Shown: in pieces, positions 7,759 through 40,394 of the stretch
How positions within the stretch are numbered: position 1 is the stretch's first letter
Layout of the letters: every line of letters starts with the position of its first letter
Assembly (NCBI RefSeq): GCF_000513895.2
Contig: NZ_CP165782.1
Coordinates: 1,364,001 to 1,428,000 of the forward strand
DNA from: Ensifer sp. WSM1721
GTDB lineage: Bacteria; Pseudomonadota; Alphaproteobacteria; Rhizobiales; Rhizobiaceae
Direction: 5' to 3'
DNA: 64,000 nt
Notes under the pieces: generated by a model
The model's input: the letters and a program-made list of their open reading frames with translations, nothing else
Told to the model about the DNA's origin: nothing
The model's database searches: none
Translations under genes and position numbers: made by a program

Positions 7759-9180
7759 TCAGGCCGGCTTCCCGAGCCAGCCTGCGCAGTCGCCGAGAGC
7801 GCGCGAGGCCATCGCCTGCTTCTTCGCAAGCGCCTTCTCCTTGCCGCGGAAGCGCTTGACGCCGTCCGGTTTCGTGAGCGCTCCGGGCTCCAGCGGCGGG
7901 AACAGGCCGAAGTTGATGTTCATCGGTTGGAACGATCGTTTGCCCGGTTCGTCTTCTGAAACGATATGCCCGCCGGTGATGTGATTGAGCAGCGCACCGA
8001 ATGCCGTCGTCACAGGTGGCAGGGAAGGGGCTTCACCCTTGCGTTCCGCTGCGGCGAAACGGCCGGCGAGCAGGCCCATGCTGGCACTCTCGACATAGCC
8101 TTCGCAGCCGGTGATCTGCCCGGCGAAGCGCAGGCCGGGTCTGGATTTGAGCGTGAGCGACTTGTCGAGCAGGGTCGGCGAATTGATGTAAGTATTGCGG
8201 TGCAGGCCGCCGAGTCTTGCAAACTCGGCGTTCTCGAGACCGGGGATCATCCGGAAGACTTCTCCTTGCGCGCCGTATTTCAGCTTCGTCTGGAAGCCGA
8301 CCATGTTGTAGAGCGTGCCAAGCGCGTTGTCCTGACGGAGCTGCACCACCGCATAGGGCTTGACTGAAGGATTATGCGCATTGGTGAGACCCATCGGCTT
8401 CATCGGTCCGTGACGCAGCGTCTCGCGACCGCGTTCTGCCATTACTTCGATCGGCAGGCAGCCATCGAAATAGGGCGTCCCTTCCCATTCCTTGAAGCCC
8501 GTCTTGTCGCCGGCTATCAGCGCGTTCACGAAGGCGTTGTACTGCTCTTCCGTCAGCGGGCAGTTGATGTAGTCCTTGCCAGTGCCGCCGGGACCGACCT
8601 TATCGTAGCGGGACTGATACCAGCAGACGTTCATATCGATGGTGTCGGCATAGACGATCGGTGCAATCGCGTCGAAGAAGGCGAGCGCGTCGGCAGCGGT
8701 CTCCTGGCGGATTGCCTCGGCAAGATCGGGTGCCGTGAGCGGGCCCGTCGCGATAATGGCGAGATCCCAATCCTTCGGCGGCAGGCCACGCAGTTCCTCG
8801 CGTACGACCGTGATAAGCGGGTGGTTTTCGATCGCGGCGCTGACGGCCTGCGAAAAGCCGTCGCGATCGACCGCAAGCGCGCCGCCGGCAGGTACCTGGT
8901 GGCGATCGGCTGATTGCATAATGAGCGAGCCTGCGAGGCGCATTTCCGCATGGAGCACGCCAACGGCATTGCTGGTCGCATCGTCCGAGCGGAAGGAGTT
9001 GGAGCAGACGAGCTCGGCCAGGTCATCGGTCTTGTGCGCATCCGTGCCGCGCACGCCGCGCATCTCATGCAGAATGACCGGTATGCCCGCCTCGGCGATC
9101 TGCCAGGCGGCTTCCGATCCCGCAAGGCCGCCGCCGATGACATGGATGGGCGAATAGGACGAAGATGTATTCATGTTCAT
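7759..9180 (-). CDS. trmFO: Methylenetetrahydrofolate-tRNA-(uracil-5-)-methyltransferase TrmFO
   Basis: FAD- and folate-dependent enzyme that makes ribothymidine at position 54 in the T-loop of tRNAs. The N-terminal dinucleotide-binding motif [13 protein letters not shown] is intact, followed by the family segment [19 protein letters not shown] with its conserved Cys. The C-terminal ITGGHI motif is also present. From the ATG at 9180 (MNMNTSS) the protein is 473 aa, the usual length; an ATG six bases further in is equally possible. The reading frame stays open upstream but that part is not TrmFO-like. Monocistronic by context. Confidence 0.95.
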
Positions 9181-9272: not shown

Positions 9273-9416
9273 TTAGCGGAAGGAACGGGCCGCGATGTTG
9301 CGGATATCGTAGCGGGTGATGCCGATATCGTTGAGAGCGTGATTGGACAGGCTGCCGAGCTCGGCAACGGTACGGCGGTAATTGATCCAGCTTTTTGCGA
9401 TGCGAATCGGGTTCAT
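9273..9416 (-). CDS. DUF1127 small protein (47 aa)
   Basis: Tiny basic protein of the DUF1127 family, too short for most gene finders. The translation starts [17 protein letters not shown] and ends with the hallmark segment [13 protein letters not shown]. Such proteins are abundant in rhizobia. Some act as RNA-binding regulators; CcaF1 of Rhodobacter and DUF1127 proteins of Agrobacterium affect RNA turnover and phosphate or carbon metabolism. The minus-strand ATG at 9416 is preceded by a purine-rich GAGGAAAAGAGA site, and a strong terminator follows the stop. A paralogue lies about 440 bases upstream. Function here is inferred from family only. Confidence 0.88.
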
Positions 9417-9794
9417 GGTCTCTTTTCCTCAAGATCGGTTTGTCGCGACAGTGATTGTCCGCGTCGTTGAGGTTCTTATACGCTTGTCTAATTGGAAGAT
9501 GGAGTGCAAAGAAAATGCAGCTGCTATGCATTTGTGCACTGCATCGCCAATTTCGTGAGCATCAAGGCGCTGCCGCCCGAAAAAGCATCATGCTTTAAGA
9601 GTTGATCAAAATGCGAGGTTCGGCGCTTAACGCATTGCTCAATCACGTTTTCAGTGCGTCAGCGTAGAGCGGTTTAAAAGACGCCGTACGGGAATGTTGC
9701 AGCGCACTGAATCGCGTGCCGGGACGATACCTCATCCGCCTTTCGCTCATGCGAAAGGACGCGTCCTGATAGGGCCGAAACAGGGATAAAAAAG
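9417..9794. other. Spacer between the two DUF1127 genes
   Basis: About 380 bases without a supportable gene. It should contain the promoter of the downstream DUF1127 gene near 9440-9500; a TATAAG hexamer can be read on the minus strand there, without a convincing -35 partner. Otherwise I see nothing in it. Confidence 0.4.
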
Positions 9795-9829
9795 AAAAAC
9801 GCCCGCCGGCGGAACCGGAAGGCGTTTTT
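9795..9829 (-). terminator. Rho-independent terminator of the second DUF1127 gene
   Basis: Inverted repeat AAAAACGCC / GGCGTTTTT around a GC-rich interior that can pair further. On the minus strand it ends in a run of T residues interrupted by one C. It begins 26 bases after the DUF1127 stop. Confidence 0.75.
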
Positions 9830-9854
9830 GAACGAGCCTGCGAAGCTTTGATGC

Positions 9855-9998
9855 TTACTTGATCGCCTGACGGGCAACGTAGGGAATGTCGCCGCGGCCG
9901 ATGCCGAGATCGTTCAGCTCACGATCGGTCATGCGGCCGAGTTCGTCGCAGGTCTGACGATACTTGCGCCAGTTGTTGAAAGAACGTGCGAGGTTCAT
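9855..9998 (-). CDS. DUF1127 small protein (47 aa), paralogue
   Basis: Second 47-residue DUF1127 protein, starting MNLARSFNNWRKYRQT and carrying the C-terminal hallmark R-E-L-N-D-L-G-I-G-R-G-D-I. It is clearly related to the copy at 9273-9416 (same length, same Asn/Arg-rich start, same DIG core). The minus-strand ATG at 9998 has AAAAGGAATAGGA upstream and a terminator follows. Directly upstream on the same strand is the array of CCTCCTCCC-loop hairpins (10247-10355). In Rhodobacter sphaeroides such hairpins (CcsR RNAs) are cotranscribed with a DUF1127 gene. Here the hairpins lie 5' of the gene rather than 3'. Confidence 0.88.
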   Translation of the reverse strand: MNLARSFNNWRKYRQTCDELGRMTDRELNDLGIGRGDIPYVARQAIK

Positions 9999-10246
9999 GA
10001 TCCTATTCCTTTTCTAGGGTCGTTTGCCAGCGCTCTGTCTCTCTTGCTGGCCATCTTATGGTTTGAAATATAATCGATTTGAACCAGACAAACAGAGACA
10101 ATGCTGCATCGCACCCATGCATACGCTGCATCCCTTTTTCTGCTGTTAACTGGATTCTAACGCTTCTTCATTGTGCGAGCGCTTCGCTGAAGACGATGAG
10201 CTACCCGGAAGGTGGAAAGCGCAGCAGGGGCGGAGGGCACAAAACA
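9999..10246. other. Region between hairpin array and DUF1127 gene
   Basis: About 250 bases. No gene is supportable. On the minus strand it holds either the leader of the DUF1127 transcript or readthrough from the hairpin array. An AT-rich stretch near 10062-10080 (TTATATTTC on the minus strand) is a plausible -10 region for the DUF1127 gene. Confidence 0.4.
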
Positions 10247-10388
10247 CAACACCCGCCGGGGGAGGAGGGCCGGCGGGCGTTGCTTGTTCTGATTGGCAAC
10301 CGGGAGGAGGAATGTTGCCAATCCCGTATCGGGAGCGCTGGGAGGAGGAGTGCGCCGCCCCGATCGATGATTGGAAGATAATGTGTGC
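10247..10388 (-). ncRNA. Array of three cuckoo/CcsR-type small RNA hairpins
   Basis: Three consecutive hairpins lie on the minus strand, each displaying CCTCCTCCC in its loop. In order of transcription: (3) stem GCGC/GCGC at 10335-10338 and 10352-10355; (2) perfect 9-bp stem ATTGGCAAC/GTTGCCAAT at 10292-10300 and 10314-10322; (1) 12-bp stem with one mismatch at 10248-10259 and 10270-10281. The stems differ in sequence while the loop is constant, which means the loop is what is conserved. This is the signature of CcsR/cuckoo RNAs (conserved CCUCCUCCC-motif, stress-induced RNAs) known from Rhodobacter. The loop is an anti-Shine-Dalgarno-like sequence. The 3' end is uncertain; a weak T-rich stretch follows hairpin 1. 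The family assignment is by motif, not by search. Confidence 0.72.
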
Positions 10389-10394
10389 GACCGG

Positions 10395-10423
10395 ATTTAG
10401 GTAGAGTACAGGCGGAATGGCAA
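10395..10423 (-). promoter_or_regulatory. Candidate sigma-70-type promoter for the hairpin array
   Basis: On the minus strand, TTGCCA (10418-10423) and CTAAAT (10395-10400) are separated by 17 bases. This places a start point near 10388, immediately before the third hairpin. The hexamers are moderate matches, so a stress-sigma promoter is also possible. Confidence 0.4.
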
Positions 10424-10458
10424 TCATGCGCCAAGCGCATGGCTCCGCGACCCGATGG

Positions 10459-10490
10459 CCAAAAGTGCCACAATCCAAAAGTGCCACAAT
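10459..10490. repeat. Perfect 16-bp tandem duplication
   Basis: CCAAAAGTGCCACAAT occurs twice in immediate succession (10459-10474 and 10475-10490) with no mismatch, about 40 bases upstream of the candidate promoter of the hairpin array. It could be a regulatory site or a simple replication slippage; nothing else in the window matches it. The rest of 10491-10640 holds no gene that I can see. Confidence 0.7.
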
Positions 10491-10645
10491 ATTGTTCATC
10501 AGGATCGCGTCGCGTGTTGCGGTGCGGAAATTTGGACAAAGAGACGCCCGCCGCCCGCATCGGGCGCTAGATGGTTGTCCGAACCCAGCATCCAGGACCA
10601 AAGGAGTGGCGGCATTGTCGCGTGCGACGTCGTTGCATTTTCCCT

Positions 10646-10864: not shown

Positions 10865-11040
10865 GGACGATATCGCGGCCACGCGTCGATATTCGACGTT
10901 GAGGAGGGCAGGCGAGGTGCCATTTTGCTTGCAAAGCGGTTGGAATTGCGTAAAGCCACTCCCGGCAAATGGATCGGCTCACGTGCTCGCCAAGCCTTTT
11001 CGAGGGAAGAGCACAGTCAACGTGAAATGAAGGTTTGAAC

Positions 11041-12516
11041 ATGCAGGTTATCGAAACGCTCGCTCAAGGGCTGAAGCGCGAACTCAAGGTCGTCATTCCG
11101 GCCGATGAAATGGAAGCTCGGATGAATGAGCGTCTGGCCGAGGTGAAGGATCGCGTTCGCATCAATGGCTTCCGTCCGGGCAAGGTCCCGGTTGCGCACC
11201 TGAAAAAGGTTTATGGCAAGTCGATCATGGCCGATCTCGTAAACGAGATCGTTCGTGAAAAGCCGACGGAAATCCTGACGAGCCGCGGCGAGAAGTCGGC
11301 TACCCAGCCGGAAGTCGCGATGACCGAGGACGAGGCCGAAGCCAACAAGATCCTGGCCGCCGAAGCCGATTTCGAGTTCACGGTTGCTTACGAGATCATT
11401 CCGGCTATCGAACTCAAAGATGTGAGCGACATCAAGGTCACGCGCGAAGTCGTCGACATCAGCGATGATGAGGTCAACGAACAGATCCTGCGCATCGCCG
11501 AAAGCGCCCGCACCTATGAATCGAAGAAGGGCAAGGCCGAAAATGGCGACCGCGTCACGATCGACTATCTCGGCAAGGTCGACGGTGTCGCCTTCGACGG
11601 CGGCAAGGACGAAGATGCGGAGCTGGTGCTTGGCTCCAATCGCTTCATCCCGGGCTTCGAGGAGCAACTCGTCGGCGCCAAGGCTGGCGACGAAAAGACC
11701 ATCACGGTCACGTTCCCCGCAGACTATCCGGCAGCCAACCTCGCCGGCAAGGAAGCGACCTTCGACATCACTGTGAAGGATGTCGCTGCCGCCGCTCCGC
11801 TCGAGATCAATGACGAACTGGCAACGAAGCTCGGCCTCGAATCCGTCGACAAGCTGAAGGAAATCGTCCGCGGCCAGATCGAAAGCCAGTATGGCTCGGT
11901 TACCCGTCAGAAGGTCAAGCGTCAGCTCCTCGACCAGCTCGACGAACTCTACCAGTTCGAGACGCCCGAGCGTCTGGTCAATGCCGAGTTCGAGAATATC
12001 TGGCGTCAGGTCAACACCGACCTCGATCAGGCTGGCAAGACCTTCGCTGATGAAGACACGACTGAAGAGGACGCGCGCGCCGAATATCGCAAGCTTGCAG
12101 AGCGCCGGGTCCGCCTCGGTCTCGTTCTCTCCGAAATCGGCGAGAAGGCCGGCGTCCAGGTGAGCGATGACGAGATGCAGCGTTCGCTGTTCGAACAGCT
12201 CCGCCAGTTCCCGGGCCAGGAGAAGCAGATCCTCGACTATTTCCGGAACACCCCCGGCGCCGCTGCCTCGCTGCGCGCACCGCTCTTCGAAGAAAAGGTC
12301 GTCGACCACCTGCTAACCGAAGTCTCCGTGACCGACAAGAAGGTCTCGAAGGACGCGCTGATGGCCGAGGACGAAGCCGACGACAAGCCGGCCAAGAAGG
12401 CACCGGCGAAGAAGAAGGCTGCAGCCAAGGCGGAAGCCGCCGAAGGCGAAGAAGCCGCTCCGACGAAGAAGAAGGCTCCGGCCAAGAAGAAGGCATCGGA
12501 CGAGAGCGCCGAGTAG
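11041..12516 (+). CDS. tig: Trigger factor (ribosome-associated chaperone and prolyl isomerase)
   Basis: Binds the ribosome exit tunnel and chaperones nascent chains. The three domains are visible: N-terminal ribosome-binding domain (about 1-150) with the family segment [11 protein letters not shown], an FKBP-type isomerase domain (about 160-245, [14 protein letters not shown]...FDGG), and a long helical C-terminal chaperone domain. The last 45 residues are a Lys/Ala/Glu-rich tail with repeated APAKKK units, common in alphaproteobacterial trigger factors. From the ATG at 11041 it is 491 aa; a TTG six bases upstream is in frame but AAGG spacing favours the ATG. A textbook terminator follows. 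Confidence 0.97.
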
Positions 12517-25653: not shown

Positions 25654-25730
25654 TGGCACGCCCAACGGGACTCGAACCCGTGTTTCCGCCGTGAAAGGGC
25701 GGCGTCCTAGACCGCTAGACGATGGGCGCC
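25654..25730 (-). tRNA. tRNA-Glu (UUC), copy 1
   Basis: 77 bases with encoded CCA. Acceptor GGCGCCC pairs with GGGCGT(G), anticodon loop CTTTCAC gives TTC, T-loop GTTCGAGTC. It is identical over its length to the copies at 26003 and 26253. Its upstream promoter block (TTATAG, 16 bases, CCGCAA read on the plus strand; 25745-25772) is also shared with them. Confidence 0.96.
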
Positions 25731-25744
25731 CAAGACGAGGTGGC

Positions 25745-25772
25745 TTATAGAGAGCGCTTTGGATTCCCGCAA
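25745..25772 (-). promoter_or_regulatory. Promoter of tRNA-Glu copy 1
   Basis: On the minus strand TTGCGG (25767-25772) and CTATAA (25745-25750) with a 16-base spacer, ending 14 bases before the tRNA. The same block precedes the other two UUC copies, which supports it as a true promoter. Confidence 0.65.
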
Positions 25773-25871
25773 GTGAGCAACAGCCGCAAAGTCGATTTTT
25801 TCTTCGGAAAACGTCTGAAACGAAGCCACGTGCCCTGCGGCACAGTTTTAGCTCATGCGTTGCGAAGAGGA

Positions 25872-25947
25872 TGGTACGCCCAACGGGACTCGAACCCGTG
25901 TTACCGCCGTGAGAGGGCGGCGTCCTGACCGCTAGACGATGGGCGCC
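25872..25947 (-). tRNA. tRNA-Glu (CUC)
   Basis: 76 bases with encoded CCA. Anticodon loop CTCTCAC gives CTC. It differs from the UUC copies at the anticodon, at the base pair next to the T-arm, at the discriminator-adjacent base, and by one base less in the D-loop. No promoter block like that of the other copies precedes it; it lies 55 bases downstream of copy 3 and is probably cotranscribed with it. Confidence 0.95.
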
Positions 25948-26002
25948 TACTGACGAATGACCAGCACCATACTATGAAAAAGAATGGATGCGAAAGAGGG
26001 AA

Positions 26003-26079
26003 TGGCACGCCCAACGGGACTCGAACCCGTGTTTCCGCCGTGAAAGGGCGGCGTCCTAGACCGCTAGACGATGGGCGCC
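26003..26079 (-). tRNA. tRNA-Glu (UUC), copy 2
   Basis: Same sequence as the copy at 25654-25730, with encoded CCA. Probably the first gene of a two-tRNA transcript with the CUC gene. Confidence 0.96.
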
Positions 26080-26093
26080 CAAGACAAGGCGGC

Positions 26094-26121
26094 TTATAGA
26101 GAGAGCTTGGGGTCCACGCAA
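26094..26121 (-). promoter_or_regulatory. Promoter of tRNA-Glu copy 2
   Basis: TTGCGT (26116-26121) and CTATAA (26094-26099) on the minus strand with a 16-base spacer; same position relative to the tRNA as in the other UUC copies. Confidence 0.62.
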
Positions 26122-26252
26122 GTGACCGGAAGCAATTATTCTGATTTTTCTACGGATCTAAGAAGACTGCCTCTGGTGCGCCCGCCCCAAGCAAGCATAG
26201 CGGCCACAGCACCAGGCGCAGCAAAGTATCCATAAGTATAGGAGAGGAAAAA

Positions 26253-26329
26253 TGGCACGCCCAACGGGACTCGAACCCGTGTTTCCGCCGTGAAAGGGCG
26301 GCGTCCTAGACCGCTAGACGATGGGCGCC
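26253..26329 (-). tRNA. tRNA-Glu (UUC), copy 3
   Basis: Same sequence as the copies at 25654 and 26003, with encoded CCA. Confidence 0.96.
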
Positions 26330-40181: not shown

Positions 40182-40394
40182 TTATAGTGCCTCTTGTTCG
40201 CTTCGCTTTGCTTGCTCGCCATTCTCCAAGCCGATGTCACGGAGCAGGCGAGAGTCAAACCGCGAGAGTTCGCTCAAGCTTCGGCGGTACCTTCTCTGAT
40301 GCTTCAGCAGCATCCACACGGCTTGCAAGGTGCGCACGACAATGAGGTGCGGCGACTGTAGTTCGACTTGTTTGGAATGCTCAATGGCAGCCAT
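40182..40394 (-). CDS. DUF1127 protein (70 aa)
   Basis: Third DUF1127 protein of the window, longer than the two 47-residue ones. An N-terminal 30 residues precede the domain core L-S-E-L-S-R-F-D-S-R-L-L-R-D-I-G-L. The minus-strand ATG at 40394 has AAGGAGAGAC upstream. No cuckoo-type hairpins are near this copy. Divergence in length suggests a different role from the short pair at 9.3-10 kb. Confidence 0.85.
   Translation of the reverse strand: MAAIEHSKQVELQSPHLIVVRTLQAVWMLLKHQRRYRRSLSELSRFDSRLLRDIGLENGEQAKRSEQEAL

Follow-up and report, generated by a model that had tools for sequence, protein, structure and literature searches.

An NfeR1-type sRNA gene beside two DUF1127 genes in Ensifer sp. 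WSM1721 and the order of sRNA and DUF1127 genes at related trmFO loci

Organization of the Locus

We analyzed a stretch of 64,000 nt from the genome of Ensifer sp. WSM1721 (contig NZ_CP165782.1, positions 1,364,001–1,428,000; hereafter, the window, to whose first letter all coordinates refer). On the minus strand, an NfeR1-type sRNA gene (ar14, 10242–10368), delimited with Rfam, our own covariance model (R1), and an alignment with the S. meliloti unit c2, was followed by two DUF1127 genes of 47 aa each (gene 1, 9855–9998, PF06568, 59.5 bits; gene 2, 9273–9416, PF06568, 57.2 bits) and by trmFO (7759–9180, PF01134, 332 bits), which is also annotated in the S. meliloti locus and serves as the downstream syntenic anchor. 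The upstream anchor—tig, encoding trigger factor with domains Trigger_N, Trigger_C, and FKBP_C (11035–12516)—lies on the plus strand, and a tRNA gene identified with Rfam sits between tig and the sRNA. DUF1127 gene 1 is the counterpart of SMc02051 of S. meliloti, which it matches in position and upstream sequence; a terminator was recognized behind it from sequence and fold (9788–9829, minus strand). The first-pass annotation had placed the hairpins next to a DUF1127 gene, an association which is in print as the ‘CIN1 locus’ (PMC10253847). A further DUF1127 match in the window (40221–40307, minus strand, 33.3 bits) is distant from any ar14 copy. Four tRNA genes, three of them with an identical Rfam score, are clustered within 0.7 kb (25657–26328, minus strand).

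SmrC14 of S. meliloti is flanked by SMc02051 and tig and yields a 123-nt transcript (PMC2780559); the sRNA of the window also has tig on one side and an SMc02051-type DUF1127 gene on the other. In S. meliloti CP090106, the same interval contains two three-loop units (c1 upstream and c2 downstream), two DUF1127 genes, and then trmFO, so the order tig-sRNA-DUF1127-DUF1127-trmFO is shared. Among the 14 units compared, c2 gave the best alignment with the window unit (89% over 154 nt). Read by eye, it has TGCA-N6-GCAT and TGC-N11-GCA, the motifs reported for the LsrB and NtrC sites, respectively, of the S. meliloti nfeR1 promoter, PnfeR1 (PMC10746234). Since the tig/DUF1127 interval is shared and the best match carries the PnfeR1 motifs, the sRNA of the window is an orthologue of nfeR1. 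The nearest TrmFO sequences among the matches listed, those of S. meliloti and S. glycinis, had 91% identity with that of the window.

The spacing differs from that in S. meliloti, the sRNA being 243 nt away from the DUF1127 gene in the window and 607 nt in CP090106, and the tandem upstream copy c1 is absent from the window. In S. meliloti this copy is sm7', a prediction that escaped detection in PMC2573895. For a former c1 copy in the window, the sole hint is an 11-nt GC-rich stretch. The record CP090106.1 (L125; 3.7 Mb), titled plasmid pSymB, holds tig, trmFO, and secDF and is probably a mislabelled chromosome; a group II intron maturase gene adjoins its tig.

Structure, Identity, and Conservation of the sRNA

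The three minus-strand hairpins with one common loop that had been noticed in the sequence were borne out by pattern search, folding, and the Rfam ar14 match. The motif CCTCCTCCC was found three times in the 64-kb window, always on the minus strand (10340–10348, 10302–10310, and 10260–10268); its mean number in shuffled sequences was 0.61, and three occurrences anywhere in the window were reached by 2 of 100 shuffles. In the MFE fold, each motif is located inside a hairpin loop, and the 136-nt stretch has a folding energy of −61.4 kcal/mol compared with a shuffle mean of −42.3 (z −5.4; none of 200 shuffles as low). In the order of the three motifs, CCUCCUCCC loops are borne by hairpin 1 (10324–10367; MFE fold and pattern), hairpin 2 (10291–10323; MFE fold and covarying stem), and hairpin 3 (10239–10283, with a stem at 10246–10283 and a U-rich tail; fold and covarying stem), all on the minus strand. 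In the tail, 6 of the best 8 nt are T, and, judged by sequence, hairpin 3 with its tail is a putative intrinsic-terminator-like end of the sRNA, the 5' end of which is predicted near 10368 (minus strand).

Rfam family ar14 (RF02344) matched at 10244–10368 with 98.1 bits (cut-off 58.8, E 8.3e-17); model R1, of whose 41 rows the window unit is itself one, matched at 10242–10368 with 120.6 bits. The match to CcsR1 (RF02791; 10285–10366) had 31.7 bits and was below its cut-off of 65.3, and membership in that family was rejected. The proposed assignment to the cuckoo/CcsR type thus stands for the general character of a cuckoo/CcsR-like anti-Shine–Dalgarno array and fails for the family, the array belonging to the ar14/NfeR1 branch. 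The three hairpins together form one ar14-family sRNA, orthologous and syntenic to S. meliloti NfeR1/SmrC14. Although a 298-aa minus-strand ORF spans the same stretch, a coding reading was set aside in view of the RNA-type covariation of the stems and the nearly fixed loops.

Loops no more conserved than stems had been named as evidence against the hairpin reading; in 95 covariance-model matches, the loops (27 columns) had 97.1% mean identity against 66.3% in the 99 other consensus columns, with the loop figure leaning upward because the units of model R1 (41 of 81 three-loop units) had been chosen by their loops. These matches come from 61 of 83 sources (the window and 82 loci, namely the best 80 of 592 plus 2); the 22 sources left out are those with no strong match, L087 and L107, whose matches are cut by a contig end, and the arrays L108 and L115. 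Exact loops numbered three in 66 units, two in 23, and one in 6 (n = 95). Hairpins 2 and 3 covary: in the same 95 matches, aligned by fitting to model R1, 22 of 23 pairs changed on both sides and 97.8% of cells were paired, a value as high being reached by none of 500 shuffles. The structure of model R1 (RNAalifold) is without hairpin 1, the MAFFT alignment of which was poor.

The genome contained five ar14 matches, four of them over the cut-off, and ten DUF1127 matches; by position in the whole genome, only the ar14 copy of the window has a DUF1127 gene no more than 1 kb away. In S. meliloti, six copies are reported, only one of them reliably visible on Northern blots (PMC7143759). A search of 121 genomes of the family, that of the window included, gave an ar14 match in 116 and a match over the cut-off in 108.

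Promoter and Proposed Function of the sRNA

The −10 and −35 elements of the sRNA are weak by sequence; the −10-like hexamer TTATCT (10376–10381, minus strand), aligned by eye, is in register with CTATAT of S. meliloti. A putative LsrB-type operator (10417–10439, minus strand) was found by consensus match: TGCG-N6-GCAT (10439–10426) overlaps GCAT-N3-TG-N3-T (10429–10417), the latter being exactly the consensus given for LsrB (PMC8844928). It lies at about −71 to −49, close to where the LsrB site is reported in PnfeR1. None of the genome's four other ar14 matches has this box in exact form within the 230 nt preceding its first loop. Farther upstream, a putative NtrC-like site, TGA-N11-GCA (10482–10498, minus strand; aligned by eye), has one mismatch and is shifted upstream relative to S. 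meliloti, with a 16-bp tandem duplication (ATTGTGGCACTTTTGG twice; 10459–10490, minus strand; seen in sequence and alignment) between it and the LsrB-type site. The duplication is absent from the 14 other aligned rows. Because the NtrC-like site is mismatched and displaced by the duplication, nitrogen control may differ here from that in S. meliloti.

We consider it highly probable (about 0.9) that the window carries the Sinorhizobium NfeR1 (ar14) gene, encoding a trans-acting sRNA with its own LsrB-activated promoter and with loops that silence Shine–Dalgarno sites. Transcription would start at a sigma-70-type promoter belonging to the sRNA itself, with LsrB, a LysR-type regulator, as activator, and the transcript would end at the third hairpin after about 123–127 nt. 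The three equivalent CCUCCUCCC loops would pair with GGGAGGAG and similar Shine–Dalgarno sequences, that of ntrB among them, blocking translation, and the downstream DUF1127 gene would be a separate unit with its own promoter. Our analysis provided the identity, synteny, structure, operator-like sequences, and ntrB complementarity; promoter control, transcript size, and target silencing were shown by others in S. meliloti and, by analogy, would hold in the genome of the window too.

The sRNA family and its mechanism, anti-Shine–Dalgarno loops silencing mRNAs such as ntrB, are already published. NfeR1 is described as Hfq-independent, LsrB-activated, and NtrC-repressed, with three redundant loops that silence mRNAs, among them that of ntrB, by a pairing of 8 nt (PMC10746234). 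In the genome of the window, the ntrB start region contains GGGAGGAG with a spacing of 8 nt to the ATG, and the pairing length is 8 nt, equal to the reported one. The expectation of an sRNA acting on GGAGG sites is in line with silencing through Shine–Dalgarno pairing in the NfeR1 branch. The pattern GGGAGGAG-N4-10-ATG was listed 65 times in the genome (about 62 distinct sites, two sites being listed with more than one ATG) versus 16 times for the pattern read backwards. Inspected by eye, the Shine–Dalgarno sites of both DUF1127 genes of the window lack GGGAGGAG. An Hfq pull-down would probably be negative since NfeR1 is described as Hfq-independent (PMC10746234). By analogy with NfeR1, nitrogen starvation or salt should be better expression conditions than heat for an sRNA of this type.

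Order of sRNA and DUF1127 Genes among Relatives

The trmFO loci compared were the best 80 of 592, together with two plasmid-collection records; model R1 was run on these 82 loci, on the window, and on four other loci of its genome. Arrangements of sRNA (S) and DUF1127 (D) were read from the R1 and DUF1127 hits in the window and 82 loci, and the TrmFO tree had 82 rows (the window and 81 loci, L126 being left out; best 80 of 592). Of these rows, 29 had S before D (S>D), 27 had D before S (D>S), 4 had both, and 22 had none, the last class including four loci with an sRNA and no scored pair (L087, L107, L118, and L121; the DUF1127 gene of L118, 28 nt before the sRNA, was dropped by the length filter). 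S>D and D>S are separated by a single change among the 56 rows, or by three changes if ‘both’ is taken as a state.

Within this set (best 80 of 592), Rhizobiaceae (38 rows) had a standalone sRNA before DUF1127 in 25, both orders in 2, and none in 11, and the other named families (35 rows) had D>S in 25, both in 2, and none in 8. Those D>S rows, among the matches listed, belonged to Phyllobacteriaceae (19), Aurantimonadaceae (3), Brucellaceae (2), and Ahrensiaceae (1), and the nine rows without a named family comprised four S>D, two D>S, and three none. Where an sRNA (at least 50 bits) followed a DUF1127 gene, the gap from stop codon to sRNA was −1 to 12 nt in 31 of 33 places (best 80 of 592); the two exceptions, with gaps of 43 and 66 nt, were found in Brucella rhizosphaerae and Ochrobactrum, where a fourth loop precedes the modelled unit. 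Where the sRNA stands directly before DUF1127, the gap was 50 to 607 nt (37 places among the matches listed). In Aurantimonas, the sRNA is expanded directly after DUF1127 to four tandem units (L115:2192–2689, with 12 loop motifs) or six (L108:4083–4892). Five loci of the Agrobacterium clade (L068, L076, L077, L080, and L081) had no R1 match at the trmFO locus; both DUF1127 genes are retained in four of these loci, and none was found in L080.

The sRNA itself is known, and the comparison of gene order is the part worth following. The dependence of the order on clade is probably new: no description of it was found in the passages searched, though the 2015 cuckoo-family paper may contain one.

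Origin of the Standalone sRNA

An explanation compatible with the NfeR1 reading, and one that we favor with some reserve, is that the standalone NfeR1 goes back to an sRNA derived from the 3' UTR of a DUF1127 mRNA, through the steps D-S, D-S-D-S, S-D-S-D (first D lost), and S-D-D (second S decaying to a terminator). The short distances to the stop codon in 31 of 33 places, among the matches listed, speak for it, as does the single change between the two orders on the tree. Three loci that are basal on the S>D side have mixed arrangements: D-S-D-S-D in Nitratireductor (L095), S-D-S-D-D in Rhizobium albus (L083), and S-D-S-D in Pararhizobium haloflavum (L091). The locus of Oricola (L111), classed as ‘both’ for D-S-D-S rather than for a standalone sRNA, branches far from these three.

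Decayed hairpins in the DUF1127 3' UTR of some Rhizobium point the same way. In five Rhizobium-type loci (L050, L052, L060, L053, and L056), a GC-rich terminator resembling hairpin 3 follows the first DUF1127 gene; in L050, L052, and L060, arms of CTGC and GCAG enclose CCTCCC in a hairpin with an intact stem, and L053 and L056 have CCTCCC with a decayed stem. The R1 E-values of the five were 1.2e-7, 2.3e-7, 1.5e-5, 6.5e-5, and 2.9e-4. However, the antisense strand of the units matches R1 at E-values down to 4.6e-5; therefore, L053, L056, and L060, as well as L045 (3.8e-5), may be mere GC-rich terminator hairpins, leaving L050 and L052 as the only remnants clearly better than this level. The terminator of DUF1127 gene 1 in the window matched R1 more weakly still (9792–9906, 15.7 bits, E 0.005); its stem resembles ar14 hairpin 3 and is possibly, on weak grounds, a remnant of a lost 3'-UTR copy. 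The tree also counts against certainty, being a quick one of a single protein with supports of 89 and 93 on the key branches, with L095 and L112 on long branches and with 22 of 82 rows without either order (best 80 of 592). The direction of the change is read from the outer rows and from the order published for Rhodobacter (PMC10253847).

Whether the trmFO-linked locus records the whole conversion of a 3'-UTR sRNA into an autonomous, LsrB-activated NfeR1, with DUF1127 possibly still acting in trans, we regard as close to a coin toss. In the ancestral state, the sRNA was presumably released from the DUF1127 mRNA. By analogy with CcaF1 and the CcsRs, NfeR1 may still be acted on in trans by the DUF1127 protein as its partner; against such a role, PMC12501420 reports that short DUF1127 proteins of Agrobacterium work by binding the kinase PhoR and that Salmonella YjiS has no detected RNA binding. 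If the conversion holds, the comparison offers a phylogeny-placed example, with surviving intermediates, of an sRNA that left an mRNA 3' end and acquired a promoter of its own while remaining next to its probable partner protein. For Mesorhizobium and relatives, the comparison predicts production of the NfeR1-type RNA of the trmFO locus from the DUF1127 mRNA; silencing would therefore follow DUF1127 transcription, and DUF1127 knockouts removing the 3' UTR may show sRNA effects.

Operator-Like Boxes and Transcription Units

In the window, the sRNA and DUF1127 gene 1 have separate operator-like boxes. The one before gene 1, GCATGGGTGCGAT (10108–10120, minus strand), is an exact match to the LsrB/VtlR consensus; VtlR is the Brucella counterpart of LsrB and activates three DUF1127 genes (PMC12595884). 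For the first DUF1127 gene, 56 of 74 loci (best 80 of 592) have an exact LsrB-type box at −150 to −85, compared with a random mean of 0.69; among the matches listed, 4 of 58 later DUF1127 genes have one. With sRNA positions taken from three-loop clusters, so that model-only units are not included, the box was present at −85 to −70 in 12 of 45 standalone sRNA units among the matches listed (random mean 0.10) and in none of the 28 3'-UTR-type units among the matches listed; at least four of the 45 (L087, L090, L108, and L118) may not be standalone. Eleven of the 12 hits come from Sinorhizobium, Ensifer, Shinella, Mycoplana, or the window and the twelfth from Pseudovibrio; the exact box at the sRNA promoter is thus characteristic of one portion of the family. 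Most standalone units, including the upstream copies c1 and the Rhizobium units, are without it. A looser dyad, TGC-N7-[AG]CAT, occurred in 14 of 44 standalone units and 0 of 28 3'-UTR units among the matches listed (random means 0.6 and 0.3). Counts of the box, of the dyad, and of the PhaR core given below are not independent, since the random-position controls ignore kinship between loci.

The box before DUF1127 gene 1 might instead, or additionally, be a site of PhaR (AniA), in which case the sRNA and DUF1127 would not form one LsrB module; we give this alternative appreciable weight but somewhat less than even odds. The GCATGGGTGCGAT box overlaps a sequence listed as PhaR-site-like for SMc02051; the two such sequences of SMc02051 lie 122 and 76 from the ATG and 85 and 39 from the TSS, and it is the first that overlaps the LsrB-type box (PMC12542648). 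The same source marks PhaR binding at SMc02051 as not evaluated. Among the matches listed, the PhaR core was found in first-DUF1127 promoters of 26 of 34 S>D loci, 25 of 26 D>S loci, and 5 of 13 others (random means 2.5, 1.7, and 0.7), but the LsrB/VtlR consensus was about equally frequent there (27 of 34, 22 of 26, and 7 of 13) and is rarer by chance (0.37, 0.27, and 0.09). The activation of three DUF1127 genes by VtlR also favors LsrB (PMC12595884).

The first-pass proposal that the hairpins are excised from a leader of the DUF1127 mRNA to which they belong, in the way the CcsRs are from the ccaF1 transcript, is very improbable: the sRNA and DUF1127 do lie on one strand 243 nt apart, DUF1127–sRNA cotranscription is known in Rhodobacter (PMC10253847), and the order in most non-Rhizobiaceae loci among the matches listed is compatible with it, but hairpin 3 has a U-rich tail and is terminator-like, 56 of 74 loci among the matches listed have a separate operator-like box for the first DUF1127 gene, and SMc02051 is listed as ‘Mc’ (monocistronic) with its own TSS (Table 3 in PMC12542648). 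A different DUF1127 gene of S. meliloti, whose leader contains a uORF, was set aside as a model, its mapped TSS being 279 nt from the ATG, unlike that of SMc02051 (PMC12218461).

Relation to Known sRNAs

The closest known system is NfeR1/SmrC14/SmelC397 of S. meliloti (RF02344), with which the sRNA of the window shares the three CCUCCUCCC hairpins, the LsrB-type site, and the ntrB complementarity. CcsR1-4/CcaF1 of Rhodobacter sphaeroides (RF02791) has the loop motif and a same-strand DUF1127 neighbor in common with it; however, CcsR1-4 lie behind ccaF1 on a joint transcript that starts at an RpoHI/RpoHII promoter (PMC10253847), whereas the sRNA of the window precedes DUF1127, so the reversed order noted at first reading is correct. 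The cuckoo family with its CIN1 locus (Reinkensmeier and Giegerich 2015) likewise has CCUCCUCCC hairpins near short DUF1127 genes (PMC10253847). SmelA075 and SmelA099 have CCUCCUCCC loops and were grouped with the Rhodobacter RNA (PMC3927594).

AbcR1/2 (ar15, RF02345) share anti-Shine–Dalgarno action with the sRNA of the window, and AbcR1 is under LsrB control (PMC8844928); they differ in being Hfq-bound (PMC8844928), in their separate loci, and in belonging to another Rfam family. Two tandem ar15 (AbcR-type) sRNAs were found in the genome of the window (G000:C1:1513242–1513559; L131 and L133) shortly after an lsrB-like LysR-type ORF, the arrangement known from S. meliloti (PMC8844928).
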